NCBI RefSeq assembly: GCF_963681195.1
Contig: NZ_OY808998.1
Location: forward strand, 310,001-374,000
Origin: Vibrio sp. 16
GTDB lineage: Bacteria; Pseudomonadota; Gammaproteobacteria; Enterobacterales; Vibrionaceae
Direction: 5' to 3'
DNA: 64,000 nucleotides
A model generated the notes under the pieces. It was not told where the DNA came from, searched no databases, and was given only the letters and a program-made list of their open reading frames with translations. Position 1 is the first letter of the stretch. Each line of letters starts with the position of its first letter. A program made the translations under genes and the position numbers. Below are positions 12,783-46,145 of the stretch, one piece after another.

Positions 12783-12880
12783 TGTTAATAACCTATAAAC
12801 TCGTTTATCAGAGACCAATATTATCACTGCAGTTTAAGGCAAGCATTGCATAAACTGTTACAGTCTTTGATTAGACTACA

Positions 12881-13000
12881 TAACGCCCTGTTAAGGTGTG
12901 AGCAACGCAATACCGATGCCGCCGCATACCACCTTAAACACCAAACCCTACGCACAGTGAAAATGCCACGCGTTGCGAATCACTCTTAAACAGTTTGTTA
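12881..13000 (-). repeat. attC site (CTG type, 120 bp)
   Basis: Left end TAACGCCCTGTTAAGGTG; serves the membrane protein at 13004. Confidence 0.95.
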
Positions 13001-13003
13001 TTG

Positions 13004-13411: not shown

Positions 13412-13437
13412 TTTTACCTCGATTATTTAAATAGCTA

Positions 13438-13557
13438 TAACGCCCAATTAAGGTGTGAAGCACGCGACCACTATACTCAATTTGACCACCGTAAACACTG
13501 AACTTAACTCAAACCAAAAATGCCAAGCGTGCTGAATCACTCTTAAATTGTTTGTTA
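13438..13557 (-). repeat. attC site (CAA type, 120 bp)
   Basis: Left end TAACGCCCAATTAAGGTG; terminal TTA serves as stop of the gene at 13555. Confidence 0.95.
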
Positions 13558-21321: not shown

Positions 21322-21742
21322 CTAAGCATTACCACTGCAAGACGAGTTAAAAGAAAACATACGTACTTCATCACGTGGAAACCAACCTAGTTTTTCATAG
21401 AAATATTGAGCATTCAGGTTTTCATTGGCAACAAATAAGTGAGTTTTAACTATACCAATGTTCGATAATGCATCGACCGCTGAGGATATGAGTTTGGCAC
21501 CAATGCCTTTGCCTCGACAATTCGCGTTTACAGCCAAATGTTGTACGTAGCCTCGACGACCATCTGTACCCACTAAAAGTGCCACCATCTACAGCGACAA
21601 AGCTGAGATTGGGGTTACGTTCTAAGTATTTACCTATGTTTTCTCTAGAGTCTGCATCACGCAGCAACATAGCTTCTGTTTCAGACCAAAGCTCAATAAC
21701 TTGAGAGTAATCCGAGATATCCATTTCTCTAATCAATGCCAT
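21322..21742 (-). pseudogene. Frameshifted GNAT acetyltransferase, copy 2
   Basis: Same sequence as the pseudogene at 19647-20067, shifted by exactly 1675 bp, with the identical frame break at about 21580-21590. Duplication therefore took place after the gene was broken, or one copy converted the other. Directly next to it, the following attC is interrupted by the genomic island. Confidence 0.8.
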
Positions 21743-21758
21743 TTTCCCTCTAAGCACA

Positions 21759-21772
21759 TAACGCCCTGTTAA
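21759..21772 (-). repeat. Left fragment of the attC split by the island
   Basis: 14 bp, TAACGCCCTGTTAA, followed at once by island sequence. The other 106 bp of the same attC are at 34707-34812; together they make a normal 120-bp CTG-type site. Confidence 0.93.
21766..21772. repeat. Island end core repeat (left)
   Basis: CTGTTAA, then TGCGTGAACATT inside the island. The island side holds GTGAACATT, the inverted partner of AACATTCAC at the right end (34690-34698), so a circular form would have inverted integrase core sites round the crossover. Confidence 0.85.
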
Positions 21773-21847
21773 TGCGTGAACATTAAAAACAAAAAACATT
21801 AAATAACAGTATCTTAAACAAAAAACCTCACTATAACACCAACTTTA

Positions 21848-21864
21848 TGTAGCAAATGTGTAGC
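21848..21864 (+). repeat. Putative arm-type integrase site (left)
   Basis: 17 bp, TGTAGCAAATGTGTAGC. It recurs with one mismatch, in the same orientation, at 34551-34567 near the other island end. Sub-terminal direct repeats are where phage integrases usually bind with their N-terminal domain. Confidence 0.7.
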
Positions 21865-21875
21865 TTCACGAACGT

Positions 21876-21903
21876 AAAAAAGCCACCAACAATGAAAGGT
21901 AGC
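21876..21903 (-). terminator. Rho-independent terminator after the CBASS operon
   Basis: On the minus strand GCTACC, a ten-base loop and GGTGGC (one G-U pair) are followed by six T. It sits about 110 bp beyond the stop of the SAVED effector. Confidence 0.65.
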
Positions 21904-22014
21904 ATTTCTTCATTCCTAAAACACTATTGGACAAAAGCGTGTCAGTGATTCTACTAATTTAGAAAATTACGAATTAATTCAGGAATGGCTCAACTTCCGT
22001 TTGTAGTCAAAATT

Positions 22015-23121
22015 TCATGCAACCTCACTTTCAACTATTATTGGTGCCGGAGAGGTTTTATTATTGAATTTAAGCCCCCAAGGGTATGGACAAGTCGCTC
22101 CATTAACAAATTCGTAAACAATGCACTCAGGGTGATTTCTAGTTATCTGTTGCCCCATAGCAAAGTTAAACGAGGATTGCGCTGCGCAATATATATGGAT
22201 TCTCCTTACACCATCCTGATTAAACTTGTTTAGAAGCAACCTAAACTCCTTTTTAAACTTAGTCAGTTTGGACAAACTGGACATATTGTCATGACCAATA
22301 TGAGGCATTCTTATTGTGACAATGGAACTTATATTGGTTGTTTCTCGAGCAACTTTCTCTATATCGAAAGAAATACTAAAGATTAAACATACGTCATCAT
22401 TTTGCGCTCCTTCATAGTCAGACTCATCTATAATTGGCTGATTACTATCGAAGCTTCTGTTCAAGCAATGCCATTCTTCCAAATCTCGATCGTAATCCCA
22501 TAACGTCACACTTGTTGTATTACCGATGAAGAAGCCAGAATAAAAACCGAGGCAGACGGGAGGGGTACCACCGTAATGAATAGAGGCAGATTCGTTTCCA
22601 GTTGCATCTGATAAGGATGCAACAGCTTTTTTGAGCATTACTCGAGTGTCATTTACTGCTTCTGAAGGATCACACAAAACACCATCTTTATAATGTTCAG
22701 ATAAATCTATCTTTGCACATCGAACCTTTCCCTTAGCTTTCGTTACAGTAGACAAAAAAGATGAGCTTAGTGGTTTAAACAAAGCAATGTGCTCAACGAG
22801 AATATCATTCGCTTTGCCACTATCTTTCAAAGTTTGCAAAGCGTCATACATGATGAGTAAAAAACCAATTATAACGAAGAAACTAGAAAGTAATAATATG
22901 AAAGTACCTGTGTCATTCTCAAAGAATGACGCGGTTAACTCATACCCATCTGGAGTTTTAAGGGCTATCTTGAGAGCAGCCGTTACACCTATTGAGCTAA
23001 GCCCGCTCACAACTAGAAACTTGCCGATTGTAAATAGTTTGCTTCGGGGTCTAGTGTACCATTTGAACAGCAAATCGCCCCAATGCAATAACCTGTACAC
23101 CAAATCTTTAAAGAACTCCAC
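22015..23121 (-). CDS. cap14: CBASS effector: two-TM SAVED protein (Cap14-like)
   Basis: 368 residues. Two transmembrane helices (about 30-52 and 72-93) precede a cytoplasmic SAVED domain, recognised by HIYCAAQSSFNFAMGQQI and then ECIVYEFVNG ... PYPWGL near the end, the cyclic-nucleotide-sensing core. Start is GTG at 23121, its first base overlapping the TAG stop of cap3, so translation is probably coupled. In the family, binding of the CD-NTase product makes the membrane module disrupt the inner membrane and kill the infected cell. Last gene of the four-gene operon. Confidence 0.82.
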   Translation of the reverse strand: MEFFKDLVYRLLHWGDLLFKWYTRPRSKLFTIGKFLVVSGLSSIGVTAALKIALKTPDGYELTASFFENDTGTFILLLSSFFVIIGFLLIMYDALQTLKDSGKANDILVEHIALFKPLSSSFLSTVTKAKGKVRCAKIDLSEHYKDGVLCDPSEAVNDTRVMLKKAVASLSDATGNESASIHYGGTPPVCLGFYSGFFIGNTTSVTLWDYDRDLEEWHCLNRSFDSNQPIIDESDYEGAQNDDVCLIFSISFDIEKVARETTNISSIVTIRMPHIGHDNMSSLSKLTKFKKEFRLLLNKFNQDGVRRIHIYCAAQSSFNFAMGQQITRNHPECIVYEFVNGATCPYPWGLKFNNKTSPAPIIVESEVA

Positions 23122-23627
23122 TACTTAATGCTCCGTGTCATTAACAAATCAAAACCGGACTCCGCTTCCGAGTATACAAATATCCGAAAGCTCTCGTTAC
23201 CTACAATACCAAAAAATAGCTTTCGTCCTTCATTACGCTTCATACAAGTCTTCCAATCGTCTATGTCAACAGATGATGGTTCAGGATGAGCTTCTGGATG
23301 GGTGTGCCATGTCCCAAGGTATATTTTCTTTCCTCCACTATTTTCAAAAGCACTATCGACCGCTTTTTGGTGCCCTTTATCAAGCATTCTAAAAGAAGTC
23401 CTGCTTCTTATATCTTCGGGAAGTGGAGTAGTTATATCAGATACAATGTAAAGTGATTTATTGGTATCGTAGCCACCAATTAACACGCCACAAGCTTCCT
23501 TGTCATCACTTTTAAGTTGTTGATGTTCCTTCCATTTCAGAACAACTTCATCGAAAATTAGAAGGGATAGCATACTATCGGGTAATTTAGTCACACAAAA
23601 TGCCCCTGCAATCACAAATTTCCTCAC
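23121..23627 (-). CDS. cap3: CBASS Cap3: JAB/JAMM isopeptidase
   Basis: 168 residues. JAMM metal site visible: glutamate in KEACGVLIGG (E44), HTHPE (H108, H110) and S/D at SSVDIDD (D121). Cap3 removes proteins that Cap2 has joined to the CD-NTase C-terminus. The frame overlaps cap2 by 41 bp; an internal ATG at 23573 (MLSLLIFDEVVL) would instead leave a short gap and is a plausible true start, since many Cap3 proteins begin close to that strand. Confidence 0.85.
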   Translation of the reverse strand: MRKFVIAGAFCVTKLPDSMLSLLIFDEVVLKWKEHQQLKSDDKEACGVLIGGYDTNKSLYIVSDITTPLPEDIRSRTSFRMLDKGHQKAVDSAFENSGGKKIYLGTWHTHPEAHPEPSSVDIDDWKTCMKRNEGRKLFFGIVGNESFRIFVYSEAESGFDLLMTRSIK

Positions 23628-25347
23628 ATAGCGACTCTACTGATAAAGAATTGCTAAAAGACTTGTATCTATACGTGGTCTTGACTCCTGCCTGAGTCAC
23701 ATCGAAGTTGTCTCCTTTCCAACTCACTTTAGAGGATTCAGTCAACCTTCCAAGAAGGAACTTTACTGCAAGGTCTGAAGCGACAAGTGCAGTTTGAGTT
23801 GAACAATTAGAACTATATGGCAAAAAGTTCTGGCCACAACCAGCGTGGTTTATCGTCAACTCCTGACCCGCTTCAATAAAATTTAGATTCGAAGCAAGGC
23901 CGTACTCACCAGTAGAATAATCAATGTAAGCACACTTTAAGCAACCACTCTTACCAAAACAGTCTAATATCGCATGTCCTCCAACTCCATATCCCTCTAG
24001 CCAAGTGTAAATTACTGATACGTTGATGTTTTCTTTCTCAATATAATCCTTAAAGAACCTTTCATGTGTTGGAGAACCAATTGCGATAATAATTAAGTCA
24101 TAAGACTCTAGTATCCTTTTATCATGAAGAGATACTAGATTTGACGAGTATGCCTCAACATCACACCACAGGTATTGAGATTCGATCTGGCTCTTCATTG
24201 CGAGAACTTTAGAATAACCAGTAAGAAATTCGGGTATGCAGTGTCGATAAAGATTTTCAAGTTCGAAAGAGTCAGGGTCGCAAATATGAATTTGACCGAC
24301 TCCAGAGGATGCTAGTTGCCTAACCAACTGTCCCCCAACCGAACCACAGCCGACTTGAAGCACCTTTTTATCTTTTAAGCCCGAAGCTGCACCACCTCTC
24401 GGTGCCACAAAGTCTCTGCTATAGGGTAGCACCGATATAGCATGAATCTCCCATGCTTTAAAAGCATTGAGATTCATAGGAAGTGACGAACGTTTTCCTT
24501 TATTCTTGTGCTTAAAGTGAAGTCCAAACCAAGTAATACCAGAAGGTGTTTCCGCACAAAAAACTAACCAGAACTTGTTTCTACGAAACTGGGCTTTTGC
24601 CTGAAAGAAAGAAGAAACTTCTTCTTCGAGGCCATTTAACGTACTCAAATACCATTCAATCAATCCATCTTGCTTATATGGTGCAGGATCTAAAGTGTTG
24701 AGAGGAAGTATCACAGCATCGCCAGCTTCATTTCTTTTTTCTGACAACGCAGAATTCGTTACTAGCGTTGAAAATTTACCCGGTTTATCTTCAGCGCTAA
24801 CTCCAATATAGCGTGAATCAACACCAAAATTTTTCTTTTGCATAGGTGCTTTAACAGTGAACTGGAGACTCTGACTACACTGTAAATTTGGTGGTAGCAC
24901 CAAATCGTACTGTTTATTTAGAGCTACATGGCTCCAGTTCGCTTTAAACTCCCGTAGTAACTCCTCTCGATTCCATGATGGATCACATATGGCTTTAGTT
25001 AACATTGATATATGTCGCTCTAAAGATGCCTCAAAAACTAGCTCTGGACGATCAAAGTTAATTGACAGCGATTCATGGTCACCAACACAAATAAACCCTA
25101 TTTCAGAGACCCCTTCAAGCCCCAAATCACTATCTAACAAAATCACATGAGCTAGCGGCATATGTCGTGAAGCATTCAAGATAAAAAAGGTGGGCAAAGA
25201 CAAAGGTTGACTAGACCCTTCGCTCACATTGTGAGCGAGAGAAAAGTTCTTTCCCCCAATCGTACAAGACACAACTATGCTATGTTTCTCACCAACTAGA
25301 GATATGTTATAGCCAAGAGTCCTTAGATGCTCTATCACGGAATCCAT
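23587..25347 (-). CDS. cap2: CBASS Cap2: E2-E1 ubiquitin-like conjugating enzyme
   Basis: 586 residues. The N-terminal third corresponds to the E2-like part; the centre and C-terminus form a ThiF/E1 adenylation domain: VLQVGCGSVGGQLVRQLASS (nucleotide-binding glycine motif, about residue 330) and HICDPDSFELENLYRH. The E1 catalytic cysteine is probably in NHAGCGQNFLPYSSNC near residue 510. Cap2 conjugates the CD-NTase C-terminus to a target and raises signalling. The start lies 2 bp after the CD-NTase stop, so the two are translationally linked. Confidence 0.88.
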   Translation of the reverse strand: MDSVIEHLRTLGYNISLVGEKHSIVVSCTIGGKNFSLAHNVSEGSSQPLSLPTFFILNASRHMPLAHVILLDSDLGLEGVSEIGFICVGDHESLSINFDRPELVFEASLERHISMLTKAICDPSWNREELLREFKANWSHVALNKQYDLVLPPNLQCSQSLQFTVKAPMQKKNFGVDSRYIGVSAEDKPGKFSTLVTNSALSEKRNEAGDAVILPLNTLDPAPYKQDGLIEWYLSTLNGLEEEVSSFFQAKAQFRRNKFWLVFCAETPSGITWFGLHFKHKNKGKRSSLPMNLNAFKAWEIHAISVLPYSRDFVAPRGGAASGLKDKKVLQVGCGSVGGQLVRQLASSGVGQIHICDPDSFELENLYRHCIPEFLTGYSKVLAMKSQIESQYLWCDVEAYSSNLVSLHDKRILESYDLIIIAIGSPTHERFFKDYIEKENINVSVIYTWLEGYGVGGHAILDCFGKSGCLKCAYIDYSTGEYGLASNLNFIEAGQELTINHAGCGQNFLPYSSNCSTQTALVASDLAVKFLLGRLTESSKVSWKGDNFDVTQAGVKTTYRYKSFSNSLSVESLCEEICDCRGILCD

Positions 25348-25349
25348 TA

Positions 25350-26381
25350 TTACGCCCCTTGTGAGGTTCCAACCACGCCTGCACTGGAGAAAGAGGCTAA
25401 GCTACTTTTAGCACCACTGGAGTCCTCAGGAACTTCAAAGTCAGCACCAAACAATTTGTTCAATATCTCACACTGTTTACTTTCATCGGCTTCCCTTTGA
25501 ACCTCTCCCAACTTAGTTTGCAGGTTTACAAACTTGTTCTGAAGTTGAGTTCCAGTGTCAGAACTACTGTTAGCGAAGATATCCATTCTTGGTGTAACTG
25601 GAAGCATCACAGAAATTTTGTATTTACTCACACCAACCAAATGAAAGTAGCCACTCCTTAAAATTCTATCTACAGTCTCTTTAAGTGCGCGGAGATCATC
25701 TGGCTTACCTTCTTGATCAAAACAAGGCTGAAAACACTGTTTAATTATTACTGTAAGCCCGATTGAGTAGACTTTTCTACGGACATCTGCTGAGAATTTG
25801 TGATCACGCCATCGTTTGATGTAACGCACAAGTCTAATAAACTGTTGCTGGGTATCATTAGGAGAATATGTATAACTGCTCGTATCATTGATCCAGTTTC
25901 TCAATCCCTTAGGATCTGAGTCCGACCATTTCCTATTCACTGAAGTAGAGTTGGCTTTACCTAATGCTAATTTATAACTTTCCCCATCTTTCGCATAAAT
26001 AGGTATATCAATATGAAGATTCAAACTAGCGTAGTCAGCGGTAACACATGGCTTTTTGATTTTTGCGTTCCTAAAGCCCCTATTATCAAGAACTTCTTTT
26101 ACTTTTCGCTTTGCAGTAACGGGATCATCGGGAGCTTTATCAAAAGCTACAACTACCGCACGATCTATGTCAAAATCACCATCTAGACTTTGTATCGCTG
26201 TATTTGTCGAAAAGGAGCCCTGTAAGAAATCGTCAATAACTGGATATCCTGCACTACAAAATGCTGTTCTTACTTGAGATAAAATACTTGAATCTTTATC
26301 TCGCGCATCTCTGTAATCCACGCTCTCCCTAGTTAATTTGATCTTATTGTGAAATTTAATAAAGTGAGTTTGAACTGCCAT
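25350..26381 (-). CDS. CBASS CD-NTase (cGAS/DncV-like nucleotidyltransferase)
   Basis: 343 residues, ATG 26381 behind GGAG. Active site: QGSFSTNTA (G55-S56), GDFDIDRA (D71, D73) and LHIDIPIY (D125). These make the metal-binding triad of cyclic oligonucleotide synthases. The C-terminal third is low in structure (GAKSSLASFSSAGVV) and ends in GTSQGA, a flexible tail suited to Cap2 conjugation. The product cannot be predicted from sequence by eye. First gene of the operon. Confidence 0.9.
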   Translation of the reverse strand: MAVQTHFIKFHNKIKLTRESVDYRDARDKDSSILSQVRTAFCSAGYPVIDDFLQGSFSTNTAIQSLDGDFDIDRAVVVAFDKAPDDPVTAKRKVKEVLDNRGFRNAKIKKPCVTADYASLNLHIDIPIYAKDGESYKLALGKANSTSVNRKWSDSDPKGLRNWINDTSSYTYSPNDTQQQFIRLVRYIKRWRDHKFSADVRRKVYSIGLTVIIKQCFQPCFDQEGKPDDLRALKETVDRILRSGYFHLVGVSKYKISVMLPVTPRMDIFANSSSDTGTQLQNKFVNLQTKLGEVQREADESKQCEILNKLFGADFEVPEDSSGAKSSLASFSSAGVVGTSQGA

Positions 26382-26745
26382 TTCTTTTAGCTCCCAATGC
26401 TAACATCATCATAAATAGCTAATTGGGGCATGTACTTAGATTATCAATAGCAGTGTTTCAATGACGATCAAAACAATGATCGATATCAAACCAGTTTCAC
26501 TTTTACTAAATCAGCATCAATCAGTCTTAGCTGACCAATCCCCATAAACTAACTCATAAATCCTAGTAACATAGATAGTATTAAAGCTTCCCCCCTGAGG
26601 CCACAAACAAGAACTGGTATTACCAAAAGTAAGCCAAGTAAACTTCGGTGAAGTAAGAAGCTGGGGGGTTATAACTTGCTTTGGGGCAGAGCTGAGCCAG
26701 CGTATATTTAGCTGGCTCTATGATGGTTACTCCATAGCTAAGCGA
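26382..26745 (-). promoter_or_regulatory. Intergenic region carrying the probable CBASS promoter
   Basis: 364 bp without a gene between the dGTPase stop and the CD-NTase start. The CBASS operon promoter must lie here or be shared with dgt by read-through. An inverted repeat at 26694-26718 (next entry) is at the dGTPase end. I see no clear operator. Confidence 0.45.
26694..26718 (-). terminator. Inverted repeat after the dGTPase gene
   Basis: GAGCCAGC, nine-base loop, GCTGGCTC: a perfect 8-bp stem starting 28 bp after the stop. No strong U-run follows, so it may be a weak terminator or mRNA-stabilising hairpin. Confidence 0.5.
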
Positions 26746-28104
26746 TTAAAGTCTATCAAAGATAGAGCCTTTCCTTGGACTGAATAATTTCTCGTAAAAC
26801 TTAGTTGCATAATCATCCGTCATTCCTGATACGAAATCACAAATTACACGCATTTGAGCTGCTACTTTCTTATCTCCATCAAGACCTTCACCAGATTTTT
26901 TCCATCTAGCCAGAGTTGCCTTTGGAAGAAATCTTTCTGGATCTTTGGCTAGAGTTTGAAATAATTCAATAACTAGTTTCTGCCCTTTAAATTCTAATTG
27001 CTGAACGTTCTCATCTTGAATTACTTTTTCTACAACCAACTTAAATATACAATCTCTGAGTTTCTCTACCTGTTCAGTCAACTCTATGTTGAAGCGTAAA
27101 AGTGGGTGCTCACATCCTGAACCATTGTCCACAAACTTAGTACTAGTAATCATTAAGTTTACCAAAGCGCCAATAGCTTCCTTACGCTTATGACTAGCGC
27201 CAAATAGATTTGCCAAAATGCTCTTATATCGAAGGGATTCGTTATCATTTGCCACGTCGTTGAACAAGGACTCTTTACCTTGAAAATGTTCTTCCCAAGA
27301 AGTTTTGGTTATCATTCCTAGAGAAAGAGCATCTTCTAAGTCATGAAGGCTATATGAGATGTTGTCAGCTAAGTTCATAATTGAGCAATCTAGTGACTTG
27401 TACAACGTTAGTTTGTGTGGCTTTTTGTGATCAACTTTAGTCTTGGTAAATTTCTCAATATCCTCTAGAGAAAAGCCATCAGATATGAATTCAAATATGT
27501 CCGCATCTATTTCGTGATAACACTTTGGCGGTTTCTGAGTGTTAGCTTCGAAGAGCCAATATGGTAAGTGCTCATCCTTTTCAAACTTATAGGAGTCTTC
27601 ATTAACCAGTTCCTTGTATGTAACTGGATATTTAAGAATGCCCAGTAACATTCTCCGAGTAGGATTCAACCCGTGATACTCAGTATATTTATCTAGTTTT
27701 CCAAGAATTCTTAATGTTTGACCATTTCCTTCAAAGCCGCCATAAGATCTCATACAGTAATTTAACGCTACTTCTCCACCGTGACCAAATGGGGGATGGC
27801 CGATATCATGAGCTAGGCATATGCTAGAAATTAGAGCTGATTCTGGCAGGTGTTCCCTTAAACCCTCATCACCATTTTTGTCAAGAAATTGAACAATCCC
27901 GCGTCCAATCTGAGCGACTTCCATAGAGTGTGTTAAACGTGTTCTATAAAAATCATTTTCGCCTAAACCCAATACCTGTGTTTTAGACTGCAATCGGCGA
28001 AAAGCAGCAGAGTGTATCAGTCTTGATTCATCTCTTTCATATTCACTACGAGTATCATTAGGCCTCGAATCTTGCTCTAATCTTCTTTGTGTTAAACTAT
28101 TCAA
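26746..28104 (-). CDS. dGTP triphosphohydrolase-like HD domain protein
   Basis: 452 residues, start TTG 28104 with GGAGG six bases upstream. HD metal site: RTRLTHSMEVAQIGRGI (H59), CLAHDIGHPPFGHGGE (H99-D100) and NLADNISYSLHDLEDAL further on, the order of the Dgt family that cleaves dGTP to deoxyguanosine and triphosphate. Bacterial dGTPases can stop phages by draining dGTP; the position directly upstream of CBASS within the island favours such a role here. It could also serve the island's own replication control. Confidence 0.85.
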   Translation of the reverse strand: MNSLTQRRLEQDSRPNDTRSEYERDESRLIHSAAFRRLQSKTQVLGLGENDFYRTRLTHSMEVAQIGRGIVQFLDKNGDEGLREHLPESALISSICLAHDIGHPPFGHGGEVALNYCMRSYGGFEGNGQTLRILGKLDKYTEYHGLNPTRRMLLGILKYPVTYKELVNEDSYKFEKDEHLPYWLFEANTQKPPKCYHEIDADIFEFISDGFSLEDIEKFTKTKVDHKKPHKLTLYKSLDCSIMNLADNISYSLHDLEDALSLGMITKTSWEEHFQGKESLFNDVANDNESLRYKSILANLFGASHKRKEAIGALVNLMITSTKFVDNGSGCEHPLLRFNIELTEQVEKLRDCIFKLVVEKVIQDENVQQLEFKGQKLVIELFQTLAKDPERFLPKATLARWKKSGEGLDGDKKVAAQMRVICDFVSGMTDDYATKFYEKLFSPRKGSIFDRL

Positions 28105-28418
28105 TCAGAACCTCCTATTCATCACGTGTCATATTGACAGGTTAGTTTAGTTTAATATGAACTCTTGTAAATCAAGTATCTAGTAAACTTTAAACTACAA
28201 CACAATGTGAGCCTAATACTTTTCCCCTCCTCACAGCAGATGAGCATACTGAAAAAACAGAGCGTTAGAGTCATCCAATCAGCAACACAAGGAAATACAA
28301 TTGAGATTAGAATTAGTAGGGCAAATATACATTAACAGTATGTGAATGAGTAAAAGAACTAACAACTAATGGGGCAGCTCTGAGCTACCCACATTAGATC
28401 GCTCATTCAAGACAGAGG
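28105..28418 (-). promoter_or_regulatory. Intergenic region upstream of the dGTPase gene
   Basis: 314 bp, AT-rich, no open frame. Holds the dGTPase ribosome-binding site (GGAGG next to TTG 28104) and presumably its promoter. Confidence 0.4.
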
Positions 28419-29501
28419 CTAAGCAACACATATTCCATACTTCGGAAGCACATCCCTGATAATCGCTAGTCTATAGGTTTTCAATGCATCATGGAAAAGC
28501 TTCCAGTCCGAATCTAAGAACGAGTCTTTATATTTATACGTAACTAAATCAGCAGATTGAGGCGATGCCATAGCTTTGCCTCTGGCAATTTCTTTCCAAC
28601 TATTTTTCCCGTTAACCTCAAAAGTTAGTTCTACAGCAGGGAAACCAAACTCTCCATGAGAAATGCGTTTCAGCCATTCTTTATGGCGTTCTTCACCATC
28701 TTCATGCTTAATGTCTTGAAATGCTGACTTTAAAATGAGTTTTTGTTCATTGGGTAAATCATCTTGAGCGTCAATATCCATGCTTTGATCTTCATTGATA
28801 AAGCATGTAATTGCCTTGTACATTTGGTTCGCAGCACTCAAGAAATCCTCGGTATTGTTTCTTGTGACTCTATCACCACTGCCGTTAATATAGCTCCACT
28901 CAGCATAAGGACGATCAGGAAAAGAAAGTGCGGGGCCGTGACCCAATGGCGAAATTGTAGAGATACTCCAGTTAAAGATATTGTCTTTGACTCTAGCCAA
29001 TAAGCCACTATCTGAATTTGACTCTATATCTTCTACCTCGTTGATCTCGTGACTTACACCTGCGAAGCCCTGATGAGCAAAGGTATCGGCGTAAACATGC
29101 ATTGCAATACCCATCATGTGTAATCCAAAAGACGATTTCCTGTAAGCAGCAACTGCTCTTAGCATATCTCTTGCTACTGGGCTGTCTGGAGTACAAACCA
29201 AACGCTGAATAAAGCCACCCTCTGGAATAGTGTCAGAGTGTTCACCTTGATTACCAGGAAGGAAGTGAAAAGGTATCCATGCTAAATGGTTGGCGAGCTC
29301 ATTACCATTTCGGTAATCAAGCATTTTGTGAGCGGAAGAAATACGGTCAAACATTGCCCCGTTATCAAACCGAACCGGATCCGAGTTGGTTGCTTCATCA
29401 ACATATTGAGCACAGTAAGCCAACTTTTCTGCATCGCTATGTGTCATTCCAGCGTATCTAGCAACAACATAAGTGAGTGAATGGTGTCCATCTATTTGCA
29501 T
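28419..29501 (-). CDS. DUF6765-like protein (phospholipase C/P1-nuclease-like helical fold)
   Basis: 360 residues, ATG 29501 behind GGAG. Starts MQIDGHHSLTYVVARYAGMT and continues AYCAQYVDEATNS, LGMH/IAMHVYADTFAHQGFAG: conserved His and Asp residues in the order of the large zinc-dependent helical hydrolases (phospholipase C, S1/P1 nuclease). I associate this with DUF6765. The catalytic role is not known. Between satellite and defence genes, an antiviral role is possible but unproved. Confidence 0.65.
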   Translation of the reverse strand: MQIDGHHSLTYVVARYAGMTHSDAEKLAYCAQYVDEATNSDPVRFDNGAMFDRISSAHKMLDYRNGNELANHLAWIPFHFLPGNQGEHSDTIPEGGFIQRLVCTPDSPVARDMLRAVAAYRKSSFGLHMMGIAMHVYADTFAHQGFAGVSHEINEVEDIESNSDSGLLARVKDNIFNWSISTISPLGHGPALSFPDRPYAEWSYINGSGDRVTRNNTEDFLSAANQMYKAITCFINEDQSMDIDAQDDLPNEQKLILKSAFQDIKHEDGEERHKEWLKRISHGEFGFPAVELTFEVNGKNSWKEIARGKAMASPQSADLVTYKYKDSFLDSDWKLFHDALKTYRLAIIRDVLPKYGICVA

Positions 29502-29835
29502 TTACGTATCTCCTATTGAGCATTACTCCTTCAATATAACCCTTTATAAAATCGAAATATTTTATCTAGGTTGGACTTTAATAAACTTAGGCTCAATGTA
29601 TTAACAAGCTCTATTAGTCCGTCGGCAGGACTCGGCTTTTATCTATTCATCAACTCTAGCTATGCAATTAGTAAGTTAGAGGGAGCGGTTCTATTGAGGT
29701 AAGCACGTTTGGGGGGCATTTTCGTGTATAATGTTCAGTTAGTGCACCGATGAACAAAACTATATTTACCCAAGAATTTGTTCAAATAATCTTTAGAACC
29801 AATATTTCAGAAAGTCACAAATAGAGCGCTTCAAG
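29502..29835. other. Gene-free stretch in the island
   Basis: 334 bp between the DUF6765-like start and the Sel1-like stop. Contains the ribosome-binding site of the former and probably its promoter; TATAAT near 29730 reads in the plus direction, with no gene behind it. Nothing else recognised. Confidence 0.4.
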
Positions 29836-30366
29836 TTAGTCGCATTTAGTATACTTAGACTTGAGGCAACGTTCAGCCATAGCTACTGCGATATTGTTCT
29901 GTTTTGCCTTTTCAATTCTAGTCTCATCGAAAAAGATCGCGTCATTTTGTGCTGCAAGAATGATCCACATATCAGAAGTATCTTGATCGCGCTCTACTAA
30001 TCCAAGGTATCCAGTTTCATAGTAAACAGACATCTGCTTTTGTGCCTGACCAAGCTCTTGAAAAGCAGCTGCCCTATAAAGCTCGAAGGTGAGAGTCTCT
30101 TTTTCTTTATAGGTAAGAGGAGCACCGTTGTAACGACCTAGGGACTGAGCATATATAGCCATTCCAAATTGCGCTTCAGCATTTCCGGTTAGCGTTTTTT
30201 TAACGAGCTTGTTAAAACTATCCTCAGAAAGAGCAAATTCTCCTAACGAGCCTTTATCAACCCAGAAATTGTTAATTTCTCCAAGTCTAGAAAGCGAATC
30301 TCGAGTAATTTCTGCATTGACATTAAAAGATATTATTAGTGCCAAACATATTTTTGTAGCTTTCAT
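29836..30366 (-). CDS. Periplasmic Sel1-like repeat protein
   Basis: 176 residues from ATG 30366 (MKATKICLALIISFNVNA, a signal peptide), with GGAGGTG just upstream; an ATG four codons further up is less well placed. The mature part has helical repeats resembling Sel1 (GNAEAQFGMAIYAQSLGRY, then AAAFQELGQAQKQMSVYYETG). Sel1 proteins are adaptors in envelope processes. It sits between the satellite core and the defence genes; its own role is unclear. Confidence 0.65.
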   Translation of the reverse strand: MKATKICLALIISFNVNAEITRDSLSRLGEINNFWVDKGSLGEFALSEDSFNKLVKKTLTGNAEAQFGMAIYAQSLGRYNGAPLTYKEKETLTFELYRAAAFQELGQAQKQMSVYYETGYLGLVERDQDTSDMWIILAAQNDAIFFDETRIEKAKQNNIAVAMAERCLKSKYTKCD

Positions 30367-30525
30367 ATTCACCTCCATGTATTGAATCTAAGCTTACCTC
30401 AATTGACCTATTCAAGATGCTCGTTGATATCAATTTTTAGTCGATTTCTAAGCAGAAAAGAACCAAATCGACAGGAAAATTGAAGCCTCCTTTTTGTCAA
30501 AATTTTTTATGAAAGATGAAAAAGT

Positions 30526-30573
30526 TACCCCACCTACCCCACTTCTTATCAATCAGGTGGGGTAAGTGGGGTA
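30526..30573 (-). terminator. Long hairpin after the VapE-like gene
   Basis: TACCCCAC and ACCCCAC on the left pair with GTGGGGT and GTGGGGTA on the right across a 14-base loop, separated by one 2x2 internal loop. About 11 bp past the vapE-like stop; minus-strand sequence beyond it is U-rich (ACTTTTTCAT). Probable terminator of the integrase-side genes. Confidence 0.7.
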
Positions 30574-30584
30574 GAAATGGCAAC

Positions 30585-31835
30585 TTAGCGAAATGAGGTA
30601 TTTGGGCGAACATCAGGAAAACAGTATCGGTTCGAGCCGTTAAGCAGTCGCTTCTCAATTTTGCCTTCTTTGTGCAGTTGATTCAGCGCCTTACCCACCA
30701 TGTTAGCTTTCGATACATCGGCGTTGATGAGTTCGCAGATAGCCTTGGTGGATAACCACGCTCTCGCTTTACCGTGACTCTCTTCAATCTGGTCATTGAG
30801 CAGCGTATACCATGTCCCTTTATCCACGTATTGCGAAGAGGCATGAGACACTTGCAGTTGCAGCTCTGGTGGCAACATCCAAGGGTGATGATTCACCATG
30901 AGTTGATGTTTCACCTCTAACCAAAACTGACGCAGTTTCTCGGGCTCTTTGAGCGTGAGTTCGCCTGTTGGTTTGTATTCCCAACCGAGCAGTTGATTTA
31001 AGCGCGTCATGTCAGTTTCACCCACTAATTCAATTACTGCGTACCGAGTGTTTCCTGTCTCGTCTTTTAGGAAGTCGGTGCCGTTTACCGTAGCAATTAA
31101 GCTCGTCTGTCGGTCTTTCTTGATATCAGTGCGCGCATAAGGCGGTCTCACCGTATCCCGTGACCGAGTCACAAACGCTTTAAGTGCCCCTTGGCAGTTT
31201 TTGGTTGAGCGCTCTAACTCCCCAAGCTCCACTATCCAAGCGCGAATAACCGAAAGAACGCTGTCTTTGTTGTCTGGGTTAAGCTCGGCCCCTTCTAAGA
31301 ACGCATTCGGCATGACGTTGGCAATGCGCTCAACAAAGGCCGTCTTTTTAAAGGACTGCTCACCTTGTAAGACTGGCACGAGTTTGGACTTAAAGTTAGG
31401 GACAAAGAGACATGCTACACAGCCAACAAGCCAATGTAGCAACACCGCACGGGTGAGCTCCGGCTCTTTTGCCTTTAAACAGCTTAACACCGCGTTAACC
31501 CTTGGCTCACCATCCCATTGACCCTCTAGCCAATCAGCGATGGGATGATAGCTACTTTTTAACGCCAGTGCGCTGAAGTGGTCATCTATGGCGCTTTTCG
31601 GCATCGAGTAGATAGAAGCAAGCGAGATAAGCTCGCTTCTGACCTCTTCCGGTGTCCCGACAAAGACGCCCTGCTTATAAATATCCGGCTCTAAGGTCAT
31701 CTTGTTGTGTTTGGCTTCATAGCCTGCGCTATCAAGCAGCGCTTTCAGGTTGTCCGCCGTATTGAGCACAATGCATTGACCGGATTCTTTGTACTTCACA
31801 TGAGGAAAGTTTGGCTCACAATTGGGGTTAAGCAT
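30585..31835 (-). CDS. VapE-like (virulence-associated E) P-loop protein
   Basis: 416 residues, ATG 31835 behind GGGAGGG and overlapping the alpA-like gene by 8 bp. LVPVLQGEQSFKKTAFVE is the family's altered Walker A (residues 158-165); SVIRAWIVELGELERS gives the acidic Walker B, and VRPPYARTDIKKDRQTSLI and LIATVNGTDFLKDETGNTRY follow as in VapE. In phage satellites VapE-type proteins assist replication as primase/helicase-like factors. No separate primase domain is visible. Confidence 0.85.
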   Translation of the reverse strand: MLNPNCEPNFPHVKYKESGQCIVLNTADNLKALLDSAGYEAKHNKMTLEPDIYKQGVFVGTPEEVRSELISLASIYSMPKSAIDDHFSALALKSSYHPIADWLEGQWDGEPRVNAVLSCLKAKEPELTRAVLLHWLVGCVACLFVPNFKSKLVPVLQGEQSFKKTAFVERIANVMPNAFLEGAELNPDNKDSVLSVIRAWIVELGELERSTKNCQGALKAFVTRSRDTVRPPYARTDIKKDRQTSLIATVNGTDFLKDETGNTRYAVIELVGETDMTRLNQLLGWEYKPTGELTLKEPEKLRQFWLEVKHQLMVNHHPWMLPPELQLQVSHASSQYVDKGTWYTLLNDQIEESHGKARAWLSTKAICELINADVSKANMVGKALNQLHKEGKIEKRLLNGSNRYCFPDVRPNTSFR

Positions 31836-32070
31836 GGAAGCCCTCCCCTTGTGATAAATGGTCGCGTTTTGTGTGGCTATCCAGCCAGCAATCTAAGTCT
31901 TCTTTGAGGTAACGAACCGCTCGACCAATCTTAATGAAGGGTGGCGCGACGGTTCGGTTTTTACGTGGACCTTCCATTCGAGCTTGACGAAGGAAGGAGC
32001 GACTCATTCCAATGTAAGCCGCTGTCTCTTGCTCGGTGTATACACGTTTCTCTACGTTGCTTTGAGTCAT
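31828..32070 (-). CDS. alpA: AlpA-like excisionase/regulator (MerR-type HTH)
   Basis: 80 residues, ATG 32070 after GGAGACACAG. VYTEQETAAYIGMSRSFLRQ is the winged helix-turn-helix and IKIGRAVRYLKEDLDCWLDS the wing and final helix of the AlpA/HTH_17 family. AlpA proteins activate the integrase/excision module of P4-like satellites. Overlaps vapE. Confidence 0.88.
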   Translation of the reverse strand: MTQSNVEKRVYTEQETAAYIGMSRSFLRQARMEGPRKNRTVAPPFIKIGRAVRYLKEDLDCWLDSHTKRDHLSQGEGFHA

Positions 32071-32160
32071 GTCTGTGTCTCCTGTTGTTCACTGAGACAC
32101 ACGCTAAGACATCAAAACGTCATATGACGTTTACGATGACGAAGACAATGACGTTTTTTA

Positions 32161-33288
32161 TTAAGACACTTCCTGACTTGTCTTAAAGAGACGCTTCGCC
32201 CCCGCTAAGACGTTTTTCCTAAACGACTCATACGACATAGTCTTTTCCTTCACGCCTCGTCCGAAGTAAGTGAGAGTGTCTTGAGTCATGCTCTCAATCA
32301 ACACATCGGTATCAAATTCACGTTGAAACTCATTTTGATTCACGTCTTGTCTTAAAATATTCCACACCGTTATCGCTTTCGCCTCTGGGTGCGCTTCTAA
32401 GATTCGAATGACCACATGAGCGAGTGGGTGCGTTAAGTAGCGTTGGTCAACCGAATCTAACCGACGTTTAACCGTTGAACTAACCGAAGGTAATGCGTTA
32501 GATGCGCTAGGGGTAACCGAAGCTAATGCATTAGACCCGTTACAGGTAACCGGTGCTAAGCGCTCGTTAGCACTGCTTTCAACGGTTGAAGCACCATTGG
32601 AAACACTGGTTTCAACGGTTATAGCGTTACTCAACGCACTGGATTCAACAGGGGTAACCGAAGCGGTAACCGACACTAACGCGTTAGCTTTCAACACGTC
32701 AACGCCAAACACGCGTTGGATGTCTTCTAAGTCCACTCTCAATTGTGCAGGCTCTACGGTTACCGGAGTGGTTTTTAAATGGTATCTCGGTGGGCTGTCT
32801 TTCACTTCATCGTCCGCTTTCAAGCCAAGCGACCTGTTGAATGTATTGGTTAACGCTTCCAACGAGCTATCAAGCGTTCGAAGCCGCTCGATTTGGGTAT
32901 AGGCAATAAGCGTTACCGTCGGTTGATTCAATACCCTCTCGTCCAGTTTAAAATCCGCGCTCACCACGTTACCAAATACGGATTTAACAGGTTGCCAATG
33001 CGTAATGCGTTGAGGTTCGAGAATAATGGCATGAGTACACGGTTGCGCCTTACCGGAAAACGCAAAGTTGAACGAGGTAGATTCAGTAAAACGAACCACC
33101 CCTTCATAGTTGAAAATGGCAGGCACACTTTTCGACGTGGGGTGAATCGCCCCCATCTTTTTGGATTTTAACACCCCACACAGTGGCATCTTCTTTTGCT
33201 CCACTGCGTCCAGTACATCCCCTTTAGACAGGGTGGTTTTCTGTGATATCTCATCCAACCGGATAAACCGACGTTTTAGCTCTGTCAT
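32161..33288 (-). CDS. Satellite protein with disordered Ser/Thr/Ala-rich linker
   Basis: 375 residues. The N-terminus (FIRLDEISQKTTLSKGDVLD) resembles a short helix-turn-helix of the AlpA type; residues about 215-285 are a low-complexity linker repeating SNAL and SVT units (ALVSVTASVTP, SNALASVTPSASNALPSV), encoded by repetitive DNA at 32470-32700. The C-terminal 90 residues form a helical module (HPLAHVVIRILEAHPEAKAI). Unknown family, possibly a DNA-binding replication or regulatory factor of the island. Confidence 0.55.
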   Translation of the reverse strand: MTELKRRFIRLDEISQKTTLSKGDVLDAVEQKKMPLCGVLKSKKMGAIHPTSKSVPAIFNYEGVVRFTESTSFNFAFSGKAQPCTHAIILEPQRITHWQPVKSVFGNVVSADFKLDERVLNQPTVTLIAYTQIERLRTLDSSLEALTNTFNRSLGLKADDEVKDSPPRYHLKTTPVTVEPAQLRVDLEDIQRVFGVDVLKANALVSVTASVTPVESSALSNAITVETSVSNGASTVESSANERLAPVTCNGSNALASVTPSASNALPSVSSTVKRRLDSVDQRYLTHPLAHVVIRILEAHPEAKAITVWNILRQDVNQNEFQREFDTDVLIESMTQDTLTYFGRGVKEKTMSYESFRKNVLAGAKRLFKTSQEVS

Positions 33289-33360
33289 CGTCCTTAATCA
33301 CTCCTTGAGTACTCATGTTCAATACAACCCGTTAAGGTTATCGAATTCACCTAATGCCTA

Positions 33361-34536
33361 TCAACCAATCAGTTGTACCGCGGCGGCAGTATGAGCAGGC
33401 GCTAAATGCGCGTAACGCAGCGTCATTTTCAAATCCGCATGCCCCAACAGCTCACGAACTACATTTAAGTCGACGCCCGCCATAACGAGTTTACTGGCGA
33501 AATGGTGGCGTAAATCATGAAAGCGGAAGTTCGAAATACCTGCGGCTTTAAGTAGGTTTTGCCAAGGGTACTGAAAGAAGCTCACCCGCTTACCCTCATG
33601 AACAAACACATACTCTTCATTGAGGTTTTGAGCGCGCCATTGTGACAGCATGTTAAAGACCGTGTCGTTCATTGGTATGGTGCGCTTCTTCTTCGATTTG
33701 GCGTTTTCAGACAAAATGGTGAGATAGCGATTCTCAAACGACACACTCTCCCAACGCAGCGTCAACATCTCGCCTTTACGCATTCCGGTATGCATGGCAA
33801 GTGTAATCAATGGCGTAAAGAAATCGGCGTACTGGTGAGAGTCGTTGTCTTCGCATAACTGTGCTTCTCTAGCGGCTAATGCACTAAGTAGCGCTGCCTC
33901 TTCTAACTCAGAGAGATAGCGGATACGCGTGTTGTCTTCTTTGGCTATTTTCACGCTCGATAAGTTGTGAGACTCGATGAACTCCCATTCCACCGCCCTA
34001 TTTAACGCTGCCTTAAGCCGATTAAACGTATACTCTATCGTTGCGGGTGCTCGACCTAACTTACGCTTGTCGGTTACCCATTGCTGAATGTCCCACGCCT
34101 TGATGTCTTCCAGTGGTTTATCCGCTAAGAAAGCAAAGGTATTGGCGATGGATTGGTAAGACTGTTTCGCAGTTTTGGGGTTCATGGCAAACAGATAGTC
34201 TTTGTAGTGCTCTTCCAGATATTTACCTAACGTTAAACTTCGGCGCACCTCAGCTTTACGCTCTTCAGCGCGCTGGGTTTGAACATCCACACCACTGGCA
34301 ACCAGCCCCGCCTTTTCCTTGGCTAAGTCTCTTGCCTGTGCAGGCGTCATTGAATCCGCAGAGCCAATAAGATAGTTGCGCTGCTTACCGTTCAGTCTGT
34401 AGTAGAAGTAGTACTTAATCGCGCCCTTGGGGGAAATGCGGGCATGAAAACCACTGATTTCTGTATCATTGAGACGTCCATCCTCAATCGTCAATTGCTT
34501 GATAGACGTGTTGGTGATCTTCTTCTTGATTGCCAT
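33361..34536 (-). CDS. int: Phage-type tyrosine integrase of the island
   Basis: 391 residues, close to the P4-integrase length, behind GGAGG-like sequence. The N-terminal arm-binding domain begins ISGFHARISPKGAIKYYFYY; catalytic residues: R253 (HTGMRKGEM), H340/R343 (HDLRHHF), H366 (LLGHADL) and Y375 (RYAHL). Lies 160 bp from the right island end. The nearest flanking core, CTGTTAA, inside an attC, is its inferred target. Confidence 0.93.
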   Translation of the reverse strand: MAIKKKITNTSIKQLTIEDGRLNDTEISGFHARISPKGAIKYYFYYRLNGKQRNYLIGSADSMTPAQARDLAKEKAGLVASGVDVQTQRAEERKAEVRRSLTLGKYLEEHYKDYLFAMNPKTAKQSYQSIANTFAFLADKPLEDIKAWDIQQWVTDKRKLGRAPATIEYTFNRLKAALNRAVEWEFIESHNLSSVKIAKEDNTRIRYLSELEEAALLSALAAREAQLCEDNDSHQYADFFTPLITLAMHTGMRKGEMLTLRWESVSFENRYLTILSENAKSKKKRTIPMNDTVFNMLSQWRAQNLNEEYVFVHEGKRVSFFQYPWQNLLKAAGISNFRFHDLRHHFASKLVMAGVDLNVVRELLGHADLKMTLRYAHLAPAHTAAAVQLIG

Positions 34537-34550
34537 TCAACAAACCTCCG

Positions 34551-34567
34551 TGTAGCAAATATGTAGC
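34551..34567 (+). repeat. Putative arm-type integrase site (right)
   Basis: TGTAGCAAATATGTAGC, upstream of int and one mismatch away from 21848-21864. Confidence 0.7.
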
Positions 34568-34699
34568 ACAAGGATTGTACAAAAGGAGCATTCAATGAAC
34601 AACCAGAAACAAACCACACAAACTTAAGTTACTGAATTTCAAAACAATTAAGTTCATTCTTGTTCATTGCCGTTTATAGCAAAACAACCAACATTCACA

Positions 34700-34706
34700 C
34701 TGTTAA
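34700..34706. repeat. Island end core repeat (right)
   Basis: CTGTTAA; inside the island it is preceded by AACATTCACA, outside it continues as attC (GGTGTGAGCAACGC). Confidence 0.85.
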
Positions 34707-34812
34707 GGTGTGAGCAACGCAATGCAGATGCCCCCGCAAACCACCTTAAACACCAAACGCAACGCATAGCAAAAATGCCACGCGTTGCGAATCACTCTTA
34801 AACAGTTTGTTA
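34707..34812 (-). repeat. Right fragment of the attC split by the island
   Basis: 106 bp that complete the 14 bp at 21759-21772 to a 120-bp CTG-type site; originally the attC of the SIR2 cassette at 34816. Confidence 0.93.
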
Positions 34813-34815
34813 TAT

Positions 34816-35847
34816 TTATTTTGTAACACCTTTACTTGATAGAACACCCTGCTCTTCTTTCACTAAGTTAAGGGTCCACTCTTGAAGCTCTTTTAACGTC
34901 TGTCCTTTAACAAAAGGATTGTCTTGCCAAGGGCTTTGTTGAAGAGTTGCCATGGCATAAGCATCACAACTTCTACGGGGGTGAACGGCCGCATAGGTAT
35001 TAAAGAAGTCATTGTAAATTGCATAGTTTTCTCTGACGATAAAGTCAGCCCAACTAGCCTTAACTTCTTCAGAGCTTTTGATATCGATGACCTCGATTAA
35101 AGCAAAGTCTTTAACTTGGTTCTCTTGCCATACATCTAATAACAACTTTCTAGCTTCAGCATCGGTTACAGGCGCACTGTAACCAAATACAGTTACAAAA
35201 TAAGCGTGTTTTACGTGACGTTGTAGCTCATCCCACTCACCAAATAGTAAGGGGTCTGCACTATAGTTTTTGTCACTTACTGGGTATAAGAGCTTTGAAG
35301 GTGTAAACTGCTTTCCGCAAGAATCACAGCGATTATAAACCCAACCCTTGGTCTTACATGGCATACAAGCGCCAATAGAAACGTTGCCATGTAAGAAAAC
35401 TATTCTAGGCATATTTTCAAAACCAACAGCTCTCATATTTCGTTGATAAGCTTGAGCTAAGAAAGGGTCCCAGTTAAATGTAGCTATAATATCTTTAGGT
35501 CTGTGGCTAAGGATTAAGTAATCGTAAATAGTCGGTTCATCAGGTAGTTCCATATCACGGAAATACTCTTCAACAGCAGTCTCAATTTCTTGAACGAGCT
35601 CTTCATGCTGACCTGATTTAGATAATTGGTCGTAAACTGCCTCAAAGTTCTCACCATCATATTTTACGCCGTGTTTCTCAAAGAGATAACCGATCCCTAA
35701 AACTTCCACAAGGTTGTACATCAAAGGCAACTTGCGACCATTTTTGTCACCGTTTGGAAAAGCAGCAAAGCTTGCTCCCGCCCCCAAGATGACCACGTGA
35801 GGCGAGTTGTTCTTATTTTCTGATACATCTAATGCTGGTAATGCCAT
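34816..35847 (-). CDS. SIR2-like protein with zinc ribbon
   Basis: 343 residues, ATG 35847 behind GGAG. NAD-binding loop VVILGAGASFAAFP (residues 18-30), FNWDP (about 124) and the catalytic-histidine motif FLHGN (about 153) fit the SIR2 fold; ACMPCKTKGW and NRCDSCGKQF form a zinc ribbon. Several SIR2-like proteins of phage defence break down NAD to abort infection; this one is a lone cassette, so a single-gene system is the natural guess. It could also be a protein deacylase. Confidence 0.75.
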   Translation of the reverse strand: MALPALDVSENKNNSPHVVILGAGASFAAFPNGDKNGRKLPLMYNLVEVLGIGYLFEKHGVKYDGENFEAVYDQLSKSGQHEELVQEIETAVEEYFRDMELPDEPTIYDYLILSHRPKDIIATFNWDPFLAQAYQRNMRAVGFENMPRIVFLHGNVSIGACMPCKTKGWVYNRCDSCGKQFTPSKLLYPVSDKNYSADPLLFGEWDELQRHVKHAYFVTVFGYSAPVTDAEARKLLLDVWQENQVKDFALIEVIDIKSSEEVKASWADFIVRENYAIYNDFFNTYAAVHPRRSCDAYAMATLQQSPWQDNPFVKGQTLKELQEWTLNLVKEEQGVLSSKGVTK

Positions 35848-45182: not shown

Positions 45183-46145
45183 ATGAAAAGCCAGTTTTTA
45201 CTAAGTGTAAAAGAGCATATGATTGCTCGACATTATGCTCCCAAAACGATTCAAGCATATCTACTCTGGATCACAAAGTTCATCTTATTTAACGACAAAG
45301 CTCATCCATCCAAATTGAATGAAAGCCATGTGGAAGCTTTTCTAACTCATTTAGCGGTTGACTGCAAAGTAGCTGCCAAAACACAAGCTCTGGCACTCAA
45401 CTCTATTAGCTTTCTTTATAGGGAATATTTTCGAACCCCACTTTCAGTGGAAATGAAATTTCAGAAATCACAGTTGGATAGAAAATTGCCTGTTGTGCTA
45501 ACCAAAGACGAAATGCGCCGCTTTCTGATGCATATAGATCCTAGGTATAAGTTACACATTATGTTGCTTTATGGCTCAGGTTTACGTGTTATGGAGTGTG
45601 TCCGCCTGAGAGTTCAAGACATAGATTATGACTATAAGGCACTTCGTGTGTGGCAAGGAAAAGGAGGAAAAAATCGCGTTGTAACGCTAGCGAGTGAAGC
45701 TATTTCACTACTAAAAGAACAGCAGGGCATCGCGTTAAGATACTACAAAAAGGATATCAATTCGCCTGGATATGCTGGTGTCCACATACGGCCGTCGTTG
45801 CAGAGAAAATACCCTGAAGCAGAGTTAGATTTTAACTGGCACTTTTTATTTCCCTCCCACCAGCTATCAGTTGACCCAAATACTGGAGAGCTCAAGAGGC
45901 ACCATATAAATGAAACATCTCTACAAAGAGCAGTCAAGCGTTCCGCCAAAGAAGCAGGGATAACTAAGGCCGTGACATGCCACACATTGAGGCATAGTTT
46001 TGCGACACATTTGCTCGAGTCAGGAGCAGATATTAGAACGGTTCAAGAGCAGCTCGGTCATAGTGATGTAAAGACGACGCAGATATACACTCACGTGATA
46101 GAGCGAGGAGGTGGAGGAGTTAAAAGCCCGCTCTCAAATTTGTAG
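45183..46145 (+). CDS. intIA: Integron integrase IntIA (tyrosine recombinase)
   Basis: 320 residues, ATG 45183; no clear Shine-Dalgarno. Catalytic residues: R135 (GSGLRVMECV), K160, H267/R270 (CHTLRHSFATH), H293 (LGHSDVK), Y302 (TTQIYTH). The insert between the lysine and histidine motifs (SPGYAGVHIRPSLQRKYPEA) is the integron-specific region needed to bind folded single-stranded attC. Catalyses cassette excision and insertion at attI. Diverges from the cassettes and faces rplT, the usual vibrio placement. LexA-controlled. Confidence 0.98.
   Translation: MKSQFLLSVKEHMIARHYAPKTIQAYLLWITKFILFNDKAHPSKLNESHVEAFLTHLAVDCKVAAKTQALALNSISFLYREYFRTPLSVEMKFQKSQLDRKLPVVLTKDEMRRFLMHIDPRYKLHIMLLYGSGLRVMECVRLRVQDIDYDYKALRVWQGKGGKNRVVTLASEAISLLKEQQGIALRYYKKDINSPGYAGVHIRPSLQRKYPEAELDFNWHFLFPSHQLSVDPNTGELKRHHINETSLQRAVKRSAKEAGITKAVTCHTLRHSFATHLLESGADIRTVQEQLGHSDVKTTQIYTHVIERGGGGVKSPLSNL

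Follow-up and report, generated by a model that had tools for sequence, protein, structure and literature searches.

Anti-phage islands that use the many attC copies of an integron as their target are already known in principle: PLE1-type islands of Vibrio cholerae (PLE 1, 3, 4, 5, 6 and 10) integrate into V. cholerae repeats (VCRs, which are attC sites) by means of a large serine recombinase (PMC6002521, PMC8844924, PMC5481146), and 14 different VCR sites have been reported as targets (PMC8844924). The island described here occupies positions 21766-34706 of a 64,000-nucleotide stretch of Vibrio sp. 16 (GCF_963681195.1, NZ_OY808998.1, positions 310,001 to 374,000; hereafter the window). Like the PLE1-type islands, it carries anti-phage genes and has a target present in many copies with different flanking cassettes. 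It differs in its machinery: PLE1 combines its serine recombinase with a phage-encoded directionality factor, whereas the present island has a P4-type tyrosine integrase (Int) and probably a factor of its own, a helix-turn-helix (HTH) protein. Since the integrase is of the tyrosine kind and not a large serine recombinase, we did not assign the island to the PLEs. With P4-type tRNA islands (the Islander type, PMC4383910) it shares an Arm-DNA-bind_3 integrase beside the att site and direct repeats at the ends, and beyond the attC islands its Int has its nearest relatives among integrases that insert in tRNA anticodon loops. Unlike those islands, it has as its target an integron attC, of which an array holds dozens, and no gene is restored at the far end.

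We propose that this is very probably an integrative island of anti-phage genes whose P4-type Int would recombine attP with the simple site of duplex attC, that is, the L' and R' half-sites around a 7-bp overlap. Other mobile elements targeting attC are the IS1111-attC elements and the group IIC-attC introns; to our knowledge these use other enzymes and give other products, with no attP and no cargo island. The open-licence literature matches listed, a set outside which most subscription papers and preprints fall, held no description of a tyrosine integrase using attC as attB, and likewise none of the Vibrio spread or tRNA derivation of such integrases. Integrons and phage-type islands tend to be treated as separate subjects. 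In the present case integron recombination sites appear to serve an entire clade of islands as attachment sites, which would make the array a landing pad with dozens of targets and let in defence systems that much exceed a normal cassette in size. The insertion site and its host array have the following parts:

21759..21772, plus strand: far (left) part of the split attC, R' box TAACGCC and spacer copy CTGTTAA, read from the sequence
21766..21772, plus strand: left copy of the 7-bp repeat, CTGTTAA (TTAACAG on the integrase strand)
21773..21785, plus strand: island end resembling an attC L' box, TGCGTGAACATTA (host version GGTGTGAGC), a putative core half-site
21848..21864, plus strand: arm-type repeat at the far end, 16 of 17 bases like that at 34551
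34551..34567, plus strand: arm-type repeat directly upstream of int
34700..34706, plus strand: right copy of the 7-bp repeat, CTGTTAA
34707..34812, plus strand: right part of the split attC, L' to R'' boxes
34816..35847, minus strand: gene of the cassette whose attC is split, without a PADLOC, Pfam or NCBIfam match
45183..46145, plus strand: integron integrase gene of the array (context, outside the island), TIGR02249 at 480 bits against a cut-off of 265

The island cuts an attC of 120 bp into 14 and 106 bp, with CTGTTAA at both ends: the left flank (21759-21772) reads TAACGCCCTGTTAA, and on the right CTGTTAA at 34700-34706 is followed by the remaining 106 bp at 34707-34812. The right boundary is fixed because nearly all listed attC matches in other Vibrio begin at query base 1 (34707). 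A first-pass annotation made from the letters alone had described this split site, and its observation is confirmed: the two flanks, the repeated heptamer and both arm-type 17-mers are present. It had also taken 120 bp to be the usual size of the class, which is the length of 12 of the 15 joined attCs that we could measure (91, 121 and 123 bp in the others). Its inverted core sites, AACATTCAC and GTGAACATT, stood in part: 7 of 9 positions pair in the window, and the relatives, judged by eye, keep the inner part only.

The window is a large cassette array, with 48 matches to an L'-R' site pattern against a mean of 0.49 in shuffles. Two of these do not count, the end of the island at 21759 and a spurious match at 49128; of the 46 array sites left, exactly 10, where the annotation had counted about ten, have the CTGTTAA spacer. 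An Rfam scan of the window gave no match at the gathering score. The cassette adjoining the far end (21322-21799, minus strand) appears by eye to hold an acetyltransferase gene split into two overlapping open reading frames (ORFs), as by a frameshift.

Because the island sits in an array with an integron integrase gene, and its genes are read in the cassette direction, it might be taken for a very large gene cassette that the integron integrase had captured. The cut of IntI falls within the R' box, so that a complete attC would flank the island on both sides. What is seen is a single attC split at the L'-R' spacer and an island that shows no attC of its own, and a sister island lies in a coding sequence (genome G019, below). 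We consider capture extremely unlikely, and with neither an R'-box boundary nor a whole attC of its own the island was not classed as an integron gene cassette. Its Int has the domains PF13356 (Arm-DNA-bind_3, 51.3 bits) and PF00589 (Phage_integrase, 120 bits), both over cut-off, and reaches 50.8 bits with the integron integrase model TIGR02249, below the cut-off of 265 that the array's own integrase, as a control, far exceeds. The annotation had called Int unrelated in mechanism to IntIA, which was too strong, as both are tyrosine recombinases; the difference lies in the arm-binding domain and, presumably, in a duplex instead of a folded single-strand substrate.

To place the insertion among its relatives, we sought Int homologues in 227 genomes of the genus (28 with a match at E 1e-60), in wider genome contigs (the best 80 of 112 loci), in viral contigs (3 loci), in phage records and in plasmids. 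The viral contigs and phage records held no close relative, the best-ranked matches being 38% and 36% identical, respectively. We defined close relatives as those at least 63% identical by tblastn, which gave 22 loci with duplicates counted once; the next Int below them, at 60%, lies in a tRNA gene. Upstream sequence is missing for the int genes of two of the 22: L033/L098 lies at a contig end, and in L061 what looks by eye like a transposase frame stands before residue 120. L061 and L111 (residues 1-122), from the same genome, may be the halves of one interrupted gene.

The integrase-side junction was readable in the other 20 loci. In 19 it lies in an attC, always at the same point, the L'-R' spacer, and in different attCs of Vibrio genomes and two plasmid records (the window, L119 to L130 without gaps, L111, L132, L133, L138, L142 and L143, the last two being the V. 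parahaemolyticus plasmids); in one it lies in an acetyltransferase coding sequence. The annotation had named other insertions at the same core in different cassettes as the support to look for, and these 19 of 20 supply it. The far end was also found in 16 of the 19, and in L123, L111 and L124 none appeared before the contig end. In all 16 islands with both ends the orientation of Int relative to attC is identical, and the core-to-core length is 5.4-14.1 kb in the 15 measured. As in a site-specific island, both ends are thus defined with a direct repeat at the crossover: the two 7-bp copies are identical in 14 of the 15 measured islands, or 15 of 16 with L143, where TTAACAG was read by eye at either end along with a matching R'' arm. 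Of 15 islands, 13 have a GCTACA-N-GCTACA pair similar to the arm 17-mers, at 91-95 bp inward from the far core. An attC broken at its L'-R' spacer is a simple marker for such islands.

Three of these loci have further peculiarities. Int is split into two ORFs in L138 (genome G033), and that island is probably immobile on its own. The plasmid of L142 has a second annotated arm-type integrase (locus 12486-13832) about 2 kb before the island. The record with L143, NZ_CP133902.1 (pVPTW011; also L154 and L163), is a 57,007-bp circular V. parahaemolyticus "plasmid" in which nearly all listed genes are cassette-type, with one attC island and no replication gene or integron integrase among the genes listed. 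The record may represent an array excised as a circle, or else an artefact of assembly.

Since spacers vary within arrays, agreement between the two ends of an island is not automatic. At 129 array sites of the fetched loci the spacers were TTAACGC (35), TTAATGC (18), TTAACAG (17), TTAATTG (17) and others, and two taken at random agree with a probability of 0.14. TTAACAG was strongly enriched among the insertions: 11 of 16 islands have it, compared with 17 of the 129 array sites (p = 5e-7). After grouping of related Ints by eye, a mixed group being counted as TTAACAG, the proportion was 6 of 9 (p = 3e-4). The island may still move. In genome G080 one and the same Int protein is encoded at attCs of two large contigs, of 3.2 and 1.5 Mb (C1 and C2; L127 and L128), within islands of 11.1 and 5.4 kb that have different cargo and share 4.1 kb on the int side, at 96% identity, and 164 bp at the far end. 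Likewise, Ints alike at 380-383 of 392 residues occur in four genomes in TTAACAG attCs (L125, L127, L128, L130) and in a TTAATGC attC (L126).

The 7-bp direct repeat flanking the island could also be the target duplication of a transposase or of a co-resident element, with the integrase as a passenger. The insertion site follows the Int clade and not the cargo, which differs among the islands, and most of the more distant tRNA-labelled loci described below have repeats of parts of the tRNA, as expected of integrases; we give this explanation next to no probability.

The single insertion outside attC, in G019, belongs to a sister island (Int 65% identical) that interrupts an acetyltransferase reading frame, with its cores 12.9 kb apart. 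The host sequence is ACCCCTTATCAG on the int side and CCCCCTTAACAG followed by TCATACAGAAACC (also given as TCATACAG) on the far side, a core similar to that of attC. A search that allowed up to 3 mismatches gave no attC-like L'-R' site in the surrounding 60 kb fetched, and the 480 bp upstream had no R'' motif. When 61 genomes, those of G019 and of 60 relatives, were searched, a second homologue of the acetyltransferase turned up in G190 alone, uninterrupted at the point of insertion (ACCCCTTACAAGTCATATCG) and with attC-like sites beside the gene. As the G019 island entered a coding sequence and not an attC, the duplex core alone seems enough for insertion, which argues against recognition of the folded attC. 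That Int recognizes the single-stranded attC hairpin, as IntI does, could be read from the three variable bases of the integrase-side spacer, whose complement is present in the R'' arm of all 15 joined attCs. Such pairing is inherent in attC; the G019 site lacks both the R'' motif and the L'-R' site within the stretches searched, and more distant relatives use tRNA genes. We therefore regard hairpin recognition as very unlikely, and the annotation's proposal of a phage-type integrase with duplex attC as its attB gains support from the recurrence at attCs together with the G019 insertion.

Several observations weigh against insertion into duplex attC as we describe it. An empty allele of the window's attC was sought in 227 genomes of the genus with a query of 1154 bases, which matched 215 of them, the window's own genome included. 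The matches listed held no such allele: outside that genome their coverage did not go beyond the first 131 of the 1154 bases, which are attC and a few bases more, and a genome of the same species (G143) gave two matches to the attC part only. The two 7-bp copies differ by one mismatch each in L125 and G019, and the arm-type pair is unrecognizable at the far end of L127 and L128. By a second identity measure the nearest tRNA user also reaches 63%; the clade, rather than an identity cut-off, separates the targets. In G019, finally, relaxing the search pattern brought up a single attC-like match, on the opposite strand, and an R''-like TAACAAACG is present past the gene, 134 bp outside the far core. 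A decayed attC may thus stand near the gene, though not at the insertion point, and the gene may be a former cassette.

In the mechanism that we propose for the attC islands, the inverted L' and R' boxes would be the two core half-sites to which Int binds, and Int would cut at the edges of the 7-bp spacer between them (TTAANNN on the integrase strand), which would form the overlap; strand exchange with the attP of the island would follow, and the HTH protein would act as the excision factor. Duplex recognition, the exact cut positions, arm binding and the role of the HTH protein as a directionality factor are inferred from sequence. Insertion would remove the upstream cassette's own attC and leave the rest of the array. 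As that cassette would then have no attC of its own, IntI could in principle mobilize it together with the island and the following cassette as a single unit, and every array would offer many further targets.

The annotation had held that related islands in non-integron sites with a different core would speak against its reading. Related islands outside integrons do exist, in tRNA anticodon loops; their integrases are more distant (38-60% identical) and their core is related, so that they do not refute the attC reading and seem rather to point to its ancestry. The input for the trees was a set of 90 distinct Int proteins with a length of 330 aa or more; 12 distant ones lay outside the quick tree and 10 more, with other or unread targets, were left out of the careful tree of 68 rows. 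The targets, read by eye at the int-side junction, were tRNAs with anticodon CAT in 29 rows, tRNA-Arg-CCT in 6 and tRNA-Arg-CCG in 9. ARAGORN found a whole tRNA of the labelled kind at the far end of 17 of 21 distinct tRNA-labelled loci and none at that of L042, L044, L048 and L056. An exact repeat covers part of the tRNA in 18 of 23 tRNA-labelled loci, the longest piece being 18-60 bp and mostly reaching the anticodon loop. In the tree, the Vibrio attC clade with G019 (17 rows) has support 100/100 and is nested in a 21-row set with four tRNA-Arg-CCT users (100/99). Placing all attC rows and G019 in one group (24 rows against 44) was rejected (approximately unbiased test, p = 6.5e-7).

The sequences of the targets are consistent with this ancestry. 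In the orientation used by the islands, the tRNA-Arg(CCT) arm ranked first among 33 distinct arms (116 tRNA genes, both orientations) in likeness to the 46 attC cores of the window, with 13 of 17 bases (next 12) and the highest mean, 9.65. Its stem CCC, 7-nt loop TTAGGAG and stem GG compare with CCC, TTAACAG and GG in attC, and TTAACAG keeps the TTAnnAG of the tRNA-Arg and tRNA(CAT) loops. The attC specificity would accordingly derive from integrases of the tRNA-Arg(CCT) anticodon arm, and the relatives are found in the same kind of site apparently because attC resembles the arm that their ancestors used. We lean slightly toward the fuller proposal, in which tRNA-Arg(CCT) integrases would have switched to attC twice, in Vibrio and in Colwellia/Thalassotalea, by the likeness of the duplex L'-R' site, with integrons becoming multi-copy landing pads for defence islands. 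If true, the step from tRNA to attC is a concrete and testable case of an integrase changing its target by sequence resemblance.

The second switch, taken by itself, we hold to be somewhat better than an even chance. Seven Colwellia/Thalassotalea rows form a group (100/99) that is sister (100/100) to L071, a Pseudoalteromonas Int in tRNA-Arg-CCT, and the int-side junction of all seven is formed by a different kind of attC, after which come GGCG, T or A, and T. The crossover would again be at TTAnnAG, with the island end imitating R', judging by eye from the spacing to a landmark in L091 and L071. Against this switch stands that no far end was secured in the seven loci by the core, nor in six of them by the arm motif, a search that left out L068, whose contig ends early. 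L064, L065 and L067 have complete-looking attCs downstream, where an intact far end should have been visible; these elements may be decayed or differently bounded. At 5460 and 6629 bases downstream from the start of int, L065 also has half-sites, TTAACAGGGCGTTA, that stand without the remainder of an attC; these two may be the far ends of other islands.

The recognized genes of the window's island are all on the minus strand:

22015..23121, minus strand: SAVED-2TM effector of the cyclic oligonucleotide-based antiphage signalling system (CBASS), PF18303 and PF18145; PADLOC 2TM effector, 3e-145
23121..23627, minus strand: CBASS Cap3, JAB protease (Pfam and PADLOC)
23587..25347, minus strand: CBASS Cap2, E1-E2 fusion (PADLOC, 1.8e-199)
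25350..26381, minus strand: CBASS CD-NTase (PADLOC, 7.1e-114)
26746..28104, minus strand: anti-phage dGTPase, NF041026 at 568.6 bits (cut-off 400); PADLOC dGTPase, 1.2e-150
28419..29501, minus strand: DUF6765 protein (PF20551)
29836..30378, minus strand: 180-aa protein with no match in PADLOC, PHROGs or Pfam
30585..31835, minus strand: VapE-like helicase/primase (PF05272; PHROG 1313)
31828..32070, minus strand: HTH_17, excisionase-like protein (PF12728; PHROG 66)
32161..33288, minus strand: 375-aa protein without a family match, similar in 15 of 18 attC islands
33361..34536, minus strand: P4-type tyrosine integrase with arm-binding and catalytic domains (PF13356, PF00589; tree)

The HTH_17 protein is a plausible candidate for the directionality factor, its match to excisionases being weak (5.4e-8). 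When the window's proteins were searched in 18 attC islands (the window included, some of them partial), it recurred in every one; 15 had a homologue of the 375-aa protein and 12 one of VapE. Int, the excisionase-like HTH protein and the VapE-like helicase, all near the int end, are the gene set of a phage satellite (P4- or PICI-like), and PLE satellites use the same sort of target (PMC5481146, PMC8844924). No capsid or packaging gene was found among the window proteins scanned with Pfam and PHROGs, and VapE is missing from 6 of the 18 islands; a satellite in place of a plain island is possible, though we think it the less likely description, and it would be compatible with the Int-mediated insertion that we favor.

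Cargo varies among the islands, and the CBASS and dGTPase genes occur in the window's island only among the 18. The CD-NTase, Cap2, Cap3 and effector of a type II CBASS are all present, the same four genes side by side as in known systems, with nothing unusual seen. For a cargo survey, 49 selected ORF proteins from 14 other islands, plus the window's proteins, were compared with PADLOC at E 1e-25. The proteins chosen from L120, L121, L125, L128, L129, L132 and L138 gave no match at this threshold. Strong defence matches were found in 8 of the 15 islands: CBASS and dGTPase in the window, PDC-M31A in L119, SIR2 and HerA in L122, RT_I-A with PtuA/PtuB-like proteins in L126, PDC-S28 in L127, PDC-S20 in L130, PDC-M60C in L133 and HamB in L142.

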